Assembly: GCA_027486105.1 (NCBI GenBank) | Contig: JAIXPV010000439.1 | Location: 1-37,801, forward strand | DNA: 37,801 bases | Direction of reading: 5' to 3' | Source: Runella sp. | GTDB taxonomy: Bacteria; Bacteroidota; Bacteroidia; Cytophagales; Spirosomataceae | In this document: positions 16,091 to 23,775 of the stretch, in pieces | How positions within the stretch are numbered: position 1 is the first letter of the stretch | Layout: each line of letters starts with the position of its first letter | Program-made: the position numbers and the translations under genes | The notes under the pieces: generated by a model | What the model was told of the DNA's origin: nothing | The model's input: only the letters and a program-made list of their open reading frames with translations | Database searches by the model: none

Positions 16091-16131
16091 AAGCTGGTAA
16101 AAAAGAATTTTCTTTAGAGTATTAAAATATT

Positions 16132-16162
16132 TTTTGAAATAAAAATTGAATCCATACTTTTG
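16132..16162 (+). promoter_or_regulatory. Promoter of OmpA-family gene
   Basis: TTTG at 16132-16135 and TACTTTTG at 16155-16162 are 19 nt apart, an exact match to the Bacteroidota consensus. The transcript start near 16169 rules out translation from the TTG at 16160. Confidence 0.7.
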
Positions 16163-16255
16163 TTGGCGAATCTGGTCAGGAAAGACTATTTTTGCGATAG
16201 TAGAATTTATAGGTATAGTGAAACGTATCCCCCTTATTCAACAAAAAGGTTTATT

Positions 16256-17767
16256 ATGAAAAAAGTATCTCTGCTTGTCACATTCGTATTGTTGGGATTC
16301 TGTTTGCTTGAAACTCAAGCGCAGTACAATCCAAAGGCTCCTTACGAAGGCCCCTACAAGCTGAACACTTGGTCTTTAAGTGCTTATCTAGGTCCAAGTC
16401 AATTTTACGGCGATTTACGTGAATATGACTTCTTCCCTGTAGGTACTAACAATTTTGACAGCCGTTCAGAACGTGGAACCATGCATTTTGGTGTATCTCT
16501 TGGAAAACAACTCACCTACCTCTTTGGGGCAAGATTGGACGTTGGTGCAGGAAATTTGAAAGGGATGAAACGCCGTATCTACCAATCTTATTTTAACGCC
16601 AATTATTTTCAAGCCGATGTCGCAGCCACTGTAAACATTAAAGGTCTTCTTTTTGGCCCCACAAAATTGAAACGCTGGAAAATGGATGTGTACGCTGGTG
16701 CGGGTCAAGTTTGGTTTAAATCTACCGCTTATCAGCTAGGTTCTGGGCGTTTGCAGCGCCGCTCTGATGATTCACCTACTTTGCGTAACAATACAACTGA
16801 ACTCAATAAAAAGGCTTCTTCTTATACTCAAGAATGGGTTATCCCTGTTGGATTCAGTACATCATACGAACTAACAAAGTCGCTTGATTTAGGCATTGAT
16901 TTTCGTTTGAACAACGTAAATACTGAAAAGTTGGATGCAACCGTAGGCGGTGACGCTTCTTCTATCTACGATGGCCCAACGGGTGGTCGCTTGTATGAAG
17001 GTGGCGATGCAAACAATTTCTTAGGAACTCCTAAAGGAAGCTCAGCGCTTGATAAATATGGCTACCTTGCTGTAACATTGACGTACAAACTGGGTAAAAA
17101 CCCATTACGTGTTGAGAAGAAAAACGGCAAATGGGCGTATGATTTTAACGCACTTGATGCTGGAAAAGGTTTTTACCACTTGCGTTATACCGATCCTAAA
17201 TTGCTCGTAAAACCACCGAGAATTCTCTCATTGGCTGAAATTGATTCAATTGCGAAAGCCAATAAGCCTAAAGAAATTGATCCTCGTTTGCTACAGGATA
17301 CAGATAACGACGGTGTCTCTGACTACTTCGATAAAGAGCCTAACACTCCCGCAGGAAGTATCGTAACGGGTGCTGGTCAGAAAATCGACTTTGATAAATA
17401 TGTAAGAGACGCTCTTCCAGGAATGGCTTGCAATGAAATATTTGCCAACATATTGTTTGATACCGATAAAGCCATCATCAAACCAGAGTTTTATGACTTG
17501 CTTAACAAAGTGGTTGAGTTGATGAACAAAACACAATGCCGCTTACAAATGGCTGGTCACGCTGACCGCCGTGCTTCAGACCGCTACAACGTAGCTCTTT
17601 CTGAACGCCGCGTGAATGCCGTGAAACAGTACCTTGCGCAGGCAGGCTTGAAAGATCCGAACCGCATCGTTGTCGACGCCTATGGTTCGTTCAAACCAAT
17701 TGCTGACAACGGAACGGTAGACGGCTTGAAGAAAAACCGTCGCGTAGAATTGAAATTGATGCCTTAA
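16256..17767 (+). CDS. OmpA-family outer membrane protein
   Basis: The 503-residue precursor starts with a signal peptide (MKKVSLLVTFVLLGFCLLETQA, then QYNPKAPY). Residues about 40-330 look like an outer membrane beta-barrel (alternating strands, GVSLGKQLTYLFGARLDVG). A TSP3-like calcium segment follows (DTDNDGVSDYFDKEPNT). The C-terminal OmpA domain reads ILFDTDKAIIKPEFYDLL, GHADRRASDRYNVALSERR and KKNRRVELKL, and anchors the barrel to peptidoglycan. The start at 16256 is chosen because the signal peptide begins there and the promoter lies at 16132-16162. A strong terminator follows, so the gene is monocistronic and probably highly expressed. Confidence 0.92.
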   Translation: MKKVSLLVTFVLLGFCLLETQAQYNPKAPYEGPYKLNTWSLSAYLGPSQFYGDLREYDFFPVGTNNFDSRSERGTMHFGVSLGKQLTYLFGARLDVGAGNLKGMKRRIYQSYFNANYFQADVAATVNIKGLLFGPTKLKRWKMDVYAGAGQVWFKSTAYQLGSGRLQRRSDDSPTLRNNTTELNKKASSYTQEWVIPVGFSTSYELTKSLDLGIDFRLNNVNTEKLDATVGGDASSIYDGPTGGRLYEGGDANNFLGTPKGSSALDKYGYLAVTLTYKLGKNPLRVEKKNGKWAYDFNALDAGKGFYHLRYTDPKLLVKPPRILSLAEIDSIAKANKPKEIDPRLLQDTDNDGVSDYFDKEPNTPAGSIVTGAGQKIDFDKYVRDALPGMACNEIFANILFDTDKAIIKPEFYDLLNKVVELMNKTQCRLQMAGHADRRASDRYNVALSERRVNAVKQYLAQAGLKDPNRIVVDAYGSFKPIADNGTVDGLKKNRRVELKLMP

Positions 17768-19255: not shown

Positions 19256-20356
19256 ATGTACGATTATCTTATTGTAGGTGCGGGGCTATTTGGAAATATA
19301 TGGGCGCACGAAGCCACCAAAAGAGGAAAAAGATGCTTAGTGATAGACCGTCGGAATCACATTGGGGGGAATACTTACTGTGAAAATGTAGAAGGAATTA
19401 ATGTTCACTACTACGGTGCGCACATTTTTCACACCAACGACAAAGACATTTGGGATTATGTCAACTCATTTGTAGAATTTAACCGTTATACCAATTCGCC
19501 CGTGGCAAATTATTACGGTGAGCTTTATAATTTGCCTTTCAATATGAACACTTTCTACCAAATGTGGAAGGTGCTTACTCCTGACGAAGCAAAAGCAAAA
19601 ATTCAAGAACAGATTGAAGCCGCCAATATCAAGGAGCCTAAAAATCTGGAAGAACAGGCCATCTCATTGGTAGGAACCGACATCTACGAAAAACTCATTA
19701 AAAGTTACACCGAAAAACAATGGGGACGTAAGTGTGTTGATTTGCCCGCTTTTATTATCAAGCGTTTGCCAGTGCGGTTTACGTTTGACAATAACTATTT
19801 TAACGACCGTTATCAGGGGATTCCGATTGGGGGCTATAATAAACTCAACGAGGCCTTATTGGAAGGAATTGATGTACGTTTGGGCGTAGATTACTTCAAA
19901 AACCGGGCGGAATTGGATGCGTCGGCCAAGCAAATTGTCTATACTGGTCAACTGGATGAGTATTTCGATTTTAAACTCGGATATCTAGAATACCGCAGCC
20001 TGCGTTTTGAGCACCAAACGTTGGATAAGCCCAACTATCAAGGTAATGCAGTAGTTAACTATACCGACGGCGAAACAGCTTATACGCGAATCATTGAACA
20101 TAAGCATTTTGAGTTTGGGACGCAAGACAAAACGGTCATTACGCACGAATATCCGCAAGAATGGACGCCAGGCCAGGAACCTTATTACCCTGTAAATGAC
20201 GACAAAAACGATAAGCTATTACGGGAATATCGTAAACTAGTCGACGCAGAAACGAATGTGATTTTTGGTGGGCGCTTGGCCGAATACCGTTATTATGACA
20301 TGCACCAAGTGATTGGGTCGGCCCTTGCAAAAGTTCGAAAACATTTTGGAGAATAA
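19256..20356 (+). CDS. glf: UDP-galactopyranose mutase
   Basis: The 366-residue flavoenzyme converts UDP-galactopyranose to UDP-galactofuranose, the donor for galactofuranose in surface polysaccharides. It shows the FAD Rossmann start YDYLIVGAGLFGNIWAHEA, VIDRRNHIGGNTYCEN, YGAHIFHTND, SYTEKQWGR, and a C-terminal VIFGGRLAEYRYYDMHQVI. The ATG at 19256 (MYDYLIVGAG) is preferred to the TTG at 19235 because the FAD-binding strand should start close to the N-terminus. It lies downstream of the UDP-HexNAc dehydrogenase on the same strand with a 93-nt gap. Confidence 0.95.
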   Translation: MYDYLIVGAGLFGNIWAHEATKRGKRCLVIDRRNHIGGNTYCENVEGINVHYYGAHIFHTNDKDIWDYVNSFVEFNRYTNSPVANYYGELYNLPFNMNTFYQMWKVLTPDEAKAKIQEQIEAANIKEPKNLEEQAISLVGTDIYEKLIKSYTEKQWGRKCVDLPAFIIKRLPVRFTFDNNYFNDRYQGIPIGGYNKLNEALLEGIDVRLGVDYFKNRAELDASAKQIVYTGQLDEYFDFKLGYLEYRSLRFEHQTLDKPNYQGNAVVNYTDGETAYTRIIEHKHFEFGTQDKTVITHEYPQEWTPGQEPYYPVNDDKNDKLLREYRKLVDAETNVIFGGRLAEYRYYDMHQVIGSALAKVRKHFGE

Positions 20357-20431
20357 AAAAAAAAGAATTATATTCGTACAGTTCTTTGCGTAAGTGTTTC
20401 TTTTCGTTCAGTGCTTTTATTTTTGGAATTA

Positions 20432-20636
20432 GGAAATAAAACAGTGAGTAAGAAACGCCAAAAGCGTCTCCAATGCTGAAAAGCAGTCACAAAGTGGTTT
20501 AAGCAAGTTAAAAATCAGTGTTCAATTGAATACTTGATGATTAGTTTCCTTAAAAATTTTGGTGAACTAAGGTGCAAACAAGAAACTTACTCAAAGAACT
20601 AAAAAAAACGGGGCAGGTAACTGTCCCGTTTTTGCG
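20432..20636 (+). ncRNA. Candidate structured small RNA, about 200 nt
   Basis: An exact TAnnTTTG box (TATTTTTG, 20418-20425) predicts transcription from about 20432, and a strong terminator ends it. Inside, TGAGTAAG at 20445-20452 pairs perfectly with CTTACTCA at 20586-20593 to close a long domain. Within that domain lie short hairpins: ACGC/GCGT near 20456-20467, TGCT-GAAA-AGCA at 20474-20485, and GTTTCCTTA at 20544-20552 paired with TAAGG...AAAC at 20568-20579. Length and the closing stem are compatible with a 6S-type regulatory RNA, but homology is not shown. The 5' end and the identity are inference. Confidence 0.5.
20604..20636 (+). terminator. Rho-independent terminator of candidate ncRNA
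   Basis: An A run leads into ACGGGGCAG, loop GTAA, then CTGTCCCGT (one G-T wobble) followed by a T run. The A run on the left could also terminate the leftward transcript weakly. Confidence 0.85.
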
Positions 20637-20715
20637 TTTTATAGGTTCTTGTGTATTTTCTTTTTACAAACCGTTAAAATAAATATCCATAAGCTCCAAA
20701 GGTATGTTTCACTCA

Positions 20716-22050: not shown

Positions 22051-22257
22051 AATGGTTCTCAATGGTTGATTTATTCTGCAAGCAGAGTATGAACAAATAT
22101 CGGAAAAATGAAATAGGTAGCAAATGAACAAGGTAAAAAACTGCTCGCCAATCTCTAAACTTCCTTAAAGTTCTTAACTTTCGGAAAGCGATGCAAAACT
22201 ATTCTATGCTTTGGGCTGTTACACAAACATACCCAAACTAACCAATTTTCGACAACT

Positions 22258-23775
22258 ATGACCTATCGTGAGTTGAAGTCTAAACAGCTTCTCAAAATCC
22301 ACACGCTTGGAGAGTTAAAAGCGGCGGGTTATCAGCCAAAGTCCATTAAACAGGAATTAAGAGATAATCTTATTGAAAAATTACGGGCCAAAGAATCAGT
22401 TTTTCCAGGTATTTGGGGATATGAAGATACCGTTATTCCTGATGTGGAACGGGCGATTTTATCCATGCACCATATCAACCTGTTGGGTTTGAGAGGGCAG
22501 GCCAAAACACGTATTGCACGATTAATGGTCAATTTGTTGGATGAGTACATCCCTGTGGTGGCTGGCTCAGACCTCAATGACGACCCCTTGGAGCCGCTTT
22601 CGCGGTTTGCGCGGGACATTATCCACGAAAAAGGAGACGATACCCCCGTGGCATGGATGCACCGCGACGACCGCTACGCAGAAAAACTCGCAACGCCCGA
22701 CGTTTCTATCGCTGACCTAATTGGAGATGTTGACCCCATCAAAGCCGCTACGCTCAAACTCCCTTATTCGGATGAGCGCGTTATCCACTTTGGGCTTATT
22801 CCACGTTCGCACCGTTGTATCTTTGTAATCAACGAGTTACCAGATTTACAGGCACGTATTCAGGTTTCTTTGTTCAATATTTTGCAAGAAGGAGATATTC
22901 AGATTCGTGGTTTTAAACTTCGTTTGCCGCTGGATATTCAATTTGTATTTACCGCCAACCCAGAAGACTACACCAATCGCGGAAGCATTGTGACTCCTCT
23001 GAAAGACCGGATTGATAGCCAAATTGTTACGCACTATCCTAAGTCGCTGGAAATTGGCCGGAAGATTACGCAGCAAGAAGCAATTGTTAAAACGGAACAA
23101 AAAGGCATGATTAAAACCAATGAAATCATCAAGGATTTGATTGAGCAAATTGCCTTTGAGGCCCGCGAAAGCGAATACGTTGATTCAAAAAGCGGGGTAT
23201 CGGCCCGCCTAACGATTGCGGCTTACGAAAACCTACTTTCTGCCGCGGAACGGCGCGTACTTCTCAACGGTGAAAAAGAAACCTACGTACGTATTTCTGA
23301 CCTTTATGGCGTAGTGCCCGCTATCTGTGGAAAAGTGGAACTGGTCTATGAAGGCGAAGTAGAAGGACCCGTAATAGTGGCTCAAAACCTGATTGGAAAA
23401 GCCATTCGTACCCAATTCCTGAATTATTTTATCAATCCTGAATCCCTGAAGAAGAAAAAGGGAGCTAAAAACCCTTTCCAAAAAATTCAGGACTGGTTTG
23501 GTGAAAATGAAATGGATATTTTGAGCGACCTCACCAACCGTGAATACGAAGCGCGTTTGCGTACCATTGAAGGTCTGGACGACTTGGTGGATGATTTCCA
23601 CCGGGGATTGAGTCGCGAAGAAAAATTGTTCTTAATGGAATTTGCCCTGCACGGAATGGCCGAATACTCGCTCGTGGGTAAGCAGGCGATGGATAATGGG
23701 CTTCATTTTAAAGATTTGCTCAGCAGCATGTTTTCAGGCCCCGATGCTGATGACGACGACGATGACGTGTTTTAA
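22258..23775 (+). CDS. Mg-chelatase-like (MoxR/ChlI-type) AAA+ ATPase
   Basis: The 505-residue protein is an AAA+ ATPase of the helix-2-insert clade. Walker A is GLRGQAKT at 77-84. The Walker B position reads CIFVINELPD with Asn192-Glu193 instead of Asp-Glu. Sensor 1 is FVFTANPEDYTNRG and an arginine-finger region is PLKDRIDSQI. The middle resembles ChlI/BchI; the last 100 residues are helical and end in an acidic tail (DADDDDDDVF). These ATPases usually remodel a partner with a von Willebrand A domain, and none is adjacent. It is not expected to make chlorophyll in this organism. The specific client is unknown. Confidence 0.8.
   Translation: MTYRELKSKQLLKIHTLGELKAAGYQPKSIKQELRDNLIEKLRAKESVFPGIWGYEDTVIPDVERAILSMHHINLLGLRGQAKTRIARLMVNLLDEYIPVVAGSDLNDDPLEPLSRFARDIIHEKGDDTPVAWMHRDDRYAEKLATPDVSIADLIGDVDPIKAATLKLPYSDERVIHFGLIPRSHRCIFVINELPDLQARIQVSLFNILQEGDIQIRGFKLRLPLDIQFVFTANPEDYTNRGSIVTPLKDRIDSQIVTHYPKSLEIGRKITQQEAIVKTEQKGMIKTNEIIKDLIEQIAFEARESEYVDSKSGVSARLTIAAYENLLSAAERRVLLNGEKETYVRISDLYGVVPAICGKVELVYEGEVEGPVIVAQNLIGKAIRTQFLNYFINPESLKKKKGAKNPFQKIQDWFGENEMDILSDLTNREYEARLRTIEGLDDLVDDFHRGLSREEKLFLMEFALHGMAEYSLVGKQAMDNGLHFKDLLSSMFSGPDADDDDDDVF

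Follow-up and report, generated by a model that had tools for sequence, protein, structure and literature searches.

A predicted clade-restricted structured RNA gene between glf and an Fe-S oxidoreductase gene in Runella

In Flavobacterium psychrophilum, 85 independent RNAs with a median length of 176 nt have been mapped, 45 of which are not antisense (PMC9723704). Deletion of one of these 45, Rfp18, alters the levels of predicted target mRNAs, which supports the pairing action proposed there (PMC9723704). 6S RNA (RF00013) has a rod-like outline (PMC8876501), and Ms1 of Actinobacteria sets a precedent, as an RNA of 6S shape that was identified from its structure and gene neighbourhood, not from its sequence (PMC9130861). 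Here we describe a locus in Runella sp., within a window of 37.8 kb (37,801 nt, the whole stretch of DNA analysed), that resembles the Rfp18-type sRNAs in several respects: it falls in the same length class, has a sigma-A-type promoter motif and a strong fold, is intergenic and is conserved among congeners (PMC9723704). Unlike these sRNAs, the Runella RNA is confined to four species. RNA regulation is poorly known in this group: Hfq seems to be missing from Runella, and no 6S RNA of the order rises above the Rfam cut-off.

The initial annotation proposed an unannotated structured RNA of about 200 nt at 20418-20636, in a gene-free interval between glf and an Fe-S oxidoreductase gene. No long ORF is present in any frame of this interval, and the box described as a perfect -7 element, TATTTTTG at 20418-20425, matches the Bacteroidota motif TAnnTTTG exactly. 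As this motif sits at -12 to -5 in a flavobacterium (PMC9723704), the +1 would fall at 20430, a position that coincides exactly with the start of a change-free stretch. The predicted start of the RNA is more likely near 20430 than at 20418. With 51 TAnnTTTG boxes in the window for 37 expected, little weight can be placed on the -7 box by itself, and no clear -33 element can be seen upstream of it. In two of the four species (G009 and G012), TATTTTTG is replaced by TATTTTTA, in which the final G of the box is missing. The features of the locus are as follows.

19256-20356, +: glf, the upstream gene, with the RNA at its 3' end (ORF list and reading of 13 Runella)
20380-20404, +: left arm of an outer imperfect inverted repeat, 20/25 complementary to the right arm
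20418-20425, +: predicted -7 box TATTTTTG, exact fit to TAnnTTTG (sequence)
20430-20636, +: predicted small RNA of about 205 nt (start from the -7 box; conservation; fold z -5.2)
20445-20452, +: 5' strand of the closing stem, TGAGTAAG, 8 bp (fold; invariant in four species)
20455-20467, +: small hairpin 1, 4 bp (predicted fold)
20474-20485, +: small hairpin 2, 4 bp (predicted fold)
20487-20565, +: long interrupted apical hairpin, 79 nt, 31 bp (predicted fold)
20566-20585, +: single-stranded 3' linker AACTAAGGTGCAAACAAGAA, invariant (centroid fold and alignment)
20576-20600, +: right arm of the outer inverted repeat, 20/25 complementary, overlapping the 3' closing strand
20586-20593, +: 3' strand of the closing stem, CTTACTCA (fold; alignment)
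20604-20633, +: intrinsic terminator, 13 bp, with an A-run and a T-run at its flanks (sequence, fold)

The folding energy of 20440-20636 is -57.4 kcal/mol, compared to -36.3 +/- 4.1 for dinucleotide shuffles (z -5.2), and none of 200 shuffles folded as well. Without the terminator, the fold remains more stable than its shuffles (-36.9 vs -24.9; z -3.6), and the versions of the relatives adopt the same fold, with z of -2.9 and -2.5. The parts anticipated by the initial annotation were recovered: a long-range closing stem, in which TGAGTAAG (20445-20452) pairs with CTTACTCA (20586-20593) over 8 bp; several internal hairpins, two of them small (20455-20467 and 20474-20485) and one of 79 nt (20487-20565); and a strong intrinsic terminator, a 13-bp hairpin at 20604-20633. 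Only 1 of 47 base pairs varies across the four species, and covariation is not scorable since the pairs hardly vary. In addition, an outer repeat had been missed, whose arms, 20380-20404 and 20576-20600, are complementary at 20/25 positions, a value reached by none of 300 shuffles. According to the modelled fold, this repeat could pair in a glf read-through RNA, and it may be the scar of an insertion.

The conservation of the block is limited to the predicted transcript. Among the four species, whose core alignment comprises only three distinct sequences, 7 of the 172 columns in 20430-20601 are variable (genome G000 is 84% complete). No substitution is found from 20430 to 20470, the next variable site being 20471. 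Variable sites lie just upstream, at 20414, 20425 and 20429, and 8 of the 73 sites vary in 20357-20429, which holds the left outer arm. Within the RNA, most variation is found in the tip of the long hairpin, at 20519, 20520, 20526, 20532 and 20533. Past the terminator, the window and the other carriers disagree at 78-91 of 130 columns, and this divergence directly after the terminator indicates that conservation follows the transcript. The RNA body (20433-20601) of G011 and G012 differs at 0 of 169 bases, compared to 27 of 137 fourfold sites in the adjacent glf (Fisher p 8e-11), and the same comparison in four further species pairs gave Fisher p values of 4e-6 to 2e-10. Similarly, the window differs from the other carriers at 6-7 of 169 positions of the RNA body, compared to 20-31% change at glf fourfold sites. 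This transcript-limited conservation is the main evidence that the predicted RNA is functional and, together with the fold, supports well the proposal of an unannotated structured RNA of about 200 nt, which would represent a new RNA under very strong constraint within one genus.

In the 12.6 kb of shared synteny, no more than three stretches reach this degree of conservation: the RNA, the leader and start of an OmpA-family gene, and the start of a gene at 22258. The last of these, 22164-22461, covers the spacer and the start of the gene. The leader of the OmpA-family gene, 16091-16256 (ATG likely at 16257), varies at a single column of 160 (16091-16250) across the four species; it is recognisable in 13 of 13 Runella genomes and has no strong fold. 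This candidate conserved 5' leader carries a promoter box, TACTTTTG, at 16155-16162.

Three other Runella genomes were found by DNA search to carry the block, at 94-96% identity and in single copy in each, and a pattern scan placed Runella aurantiaca YX9 and Runella sp. CRIBMP among the carriers. The four carriers represent four Runella species, all with the RNA placed after glf. With wider scoring, applied to all 13 Runella, 4 carry the RNA and 9 do not. A covariance model of the RNA returned the same four genomes only, among 201 of the family and 391 of the order, in searches that scored few candidates per genome, so that a very divergent relative could escape. No homologue was found beyond the four carriers in the 391 genomes of the order, nor in Rfam, and plasmids, phages and viral contigs yielded nothing of note related to the RNA. 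Rfam matches to STnc40, STnc430 and similar families were rejected, being far below gathering scores and resting mainly on the terminator. Also discarded were 20-22-nt matches in fmt and in a sensor kinase gene, within coding sequence and with chance E-values, and weak model matches in other genomes: a terminator-type hairpin (L045), coding DNA (L092) and a hairpin of low sequence similarity (L091).

The 3' side of glf, read in 13 genomes, points to the origin of the locus. In seven non-carrier Runella, a terminator lies 15-40 nt after glf; the sequence at this place is different in G004 and G006. The terminator directly after glf in G002 (GGGGCAGGTAACTGTC) is clearly homologous to that of the RNA, indicating that the terminator at 20604-20633 was ancestrally that of glf, and probably of the convergent gene as well. 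In the glf tree, the four carriers form one clade, with a branch support of 100%. Because a terminator closely follows glf in the seven non-carriers, the RNA is most simply explained as having been gained once, in one clade, by insertion between glf and its terminator. This looks like the birth of an sRNA gene that can be placed on a tree, the sister species keeping the empty site (glf, then terminator). Right past the terminator, at 20637-20715, a stretch that the three remaining carriers apparently keep (in G002, a small gene beside the Fe-S gene) seems to be missing from the window, an apparent lineage-specific deletion.

The -7 box, the conservation edge near 20430, the terminator and the lack of a long ORF are the signals of an independent unit, and, as predicted from sequence, the interval between glf and the Fe-S oxidoreductase gene very likely holds a genuine non-coding RNA gene. 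Our preferred reading, to which we assign a probability of about 0.5, is that of a lineage-specific non-coding RNA of about 205 nt with its own promoter, a regulatory sRNA pairing in trans without Hfq. Such an RNA would be transcribed from its own sigma-A-type promoter, starting near 20430, and would end at a terminator common to the RNA and glf, after a single birth or insertion, between glf and glf's terminator, in the ancestor of the four Runella species. It would most likely act in trans as a regulatory sRNA, its closing stem and long hairpin holding and protecting the molecule, and its unpaired, invariant segments (20430-20444, the linker that separates the small hairpins, and 20566-20585) pairing with target mRNAs. 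Hfq (PF17209) was recognised in 0 of 13 Runella, five control genomes giving matches, and target pairing would therefore proceed independently of Hfq. When the open segments were screened for duplexes with start regions in the window and with 1963 ORFs (about one third of G009), they scored no better than shuffled segments. The near-total invariance, paired bases included, would also suit a protein-binding RNA. It is rather improbable, in our view, that the locus encodes a newly born, lineage-specific structured RNA, 6S-like in outline and acting on RNA polymerase or another protein instead of by base-pairing, that was inserted between the sugar-mutase gene and its terminator; this would explain the invariance at both paired and unpaired positions.

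The position of the block between glf and the ancestral terminator of glf raises the question of whether it is a structured 3' UTR, co-transcribed with glf, closed by the outer repeat, and stabilising the mRNA or processed from it. In the read-through RNA, 20380-20395 and 20585-20600 are predicted to pair, with high probability at most positions, replacing the inner closing stem, an observation in favour of a 3'-UTR role. By contrast, conservation begins at the predicted start near 20430, 20357-20429 varying at 8/73 sites, and position 20596 is an A in the three relatives, which breaks the pair with C20384, so that no compensatory change maintains the outer stem. We thus regard the 3' UTR as an unlikely but credible reading. 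The same outer repeat, with its 20/25 complementarity equalled in 0/300 shuffles, the A-runs on both sides and the single occupied site facing an empty site in relatives would be expected of a degenerate or inert, MITE-like mobile element with terminal inverted repeats. However, the block is present in single copy, with no second one in its own or related genomes, the repeat-end pattern is about as frequent as its reversed control, with no clear excess, and no relative was found in plasmids, phages or viral contigs. Nor would an inert element remain unaltered against 20-31% change at fourfold sites, and this origin appears very improbable as a full account, although a mobile element may have been the route by which the RNA gene arrived. 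Finally, the closing stem, two small hairpins and one long hairpin recall a retron ncRNA, and the short frames opening at GTG 20444 (11 codons) and ATG 20474 (9 codons) would be those of a small-peptide mRNA. Inspection by eye of the long ORFs in the 37.8-kb window revealed no recognisable reverse transcriptase, and the frames are tiny or interrupted, making either of these RNA devices highly improbable.

The resemblance to 6S RNA suggested by the initial annotation is one of outline only, with a closing stem, an open middle and a long apical hairpin, and does not extend to model match or distribution. A 6S-like RNA binding RNA polymerase, either a true 6S or a functional analogue such as Ms1 in Actinobacteria, would fit the length of about 200 nt, the terminal closing stem, the asymmetric open middle, the long apical stem and the very strong conservation, in an order for which no 6S above the cut-off is known. 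The length, closing stem, open middle and long apical stem are also those of 6S-Flavo (RF01685). In the middle region, the 5' strand spans 34 nt and contains both small hairpins, and the 3' strand spans 20 nt, covariation support being absent. However, the search with Rfam 6S-Flavo and other covariance models, advised as a check, returned no 6S match, neither at gathering scores nor at E values up to 10. Model R2 (6S-Flavo and a relative from the same order) gave 4.3 bits on the + strand. Rfam scans revealed no 6S match in any of the 13 Runella, and neither promoter-mimic elements nor a product-RNA start were recognisable. The RNA is missing from 9/13 Runella and from 387/391 genomes of the order; a housekeeping 6S RNA would hardly be expected to be absent from most of its own genus, and Ms1 is, by contrast, widespread in its phylum with conserved neighbours (PMC9130861). 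Its neighbours are glf and the Fe-S oxidoreductase gene, as opposed to zapA and rny at the flavobacterial 6S loci inspected, a habit rather than a strict criterion. With no Rfam match, a score of about 4 bits and a distribution that is too narrow, we conclude that this RNA is not a member of the 6S family, and a 6S-like role at RNA polymerase seems quite improbable.

A probable divergent 6S RNA elsewhere in the order also argues against this role. 6S-Flavo scored above the cut-off in 9 of 198 Bacteroidota sampled, none of them in the order of the window; the Rfam model seems blind to this order. In G046, from the same order, L031:1477-1640 reaches 33 bits with 6S-Flavo, for a cut-off of 85, and, aligned with four 6S-Flavo loci, it keeps several stems via changes on both sides; it is a probable divergent 6S RNA. 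These compensatory changes indicate that a 6S RNA particular to the order probably exists and departs from the Rfam model. In the part of G009 examined, the two best 6S-model matches (L245 and L231) overlap long ORFs and were rejected, and neither zapA nor rny was found within these 2.4 Mb. In L109 and L110, 6S (around 1150-1700) directly follows zapA, with rny coming next in L110. This flavobacterial zapA-6S order recalls the zapA-ssrS neighbourhood of E. coli, and should be useful for locating 6S RNAs in other Bacteroidota.
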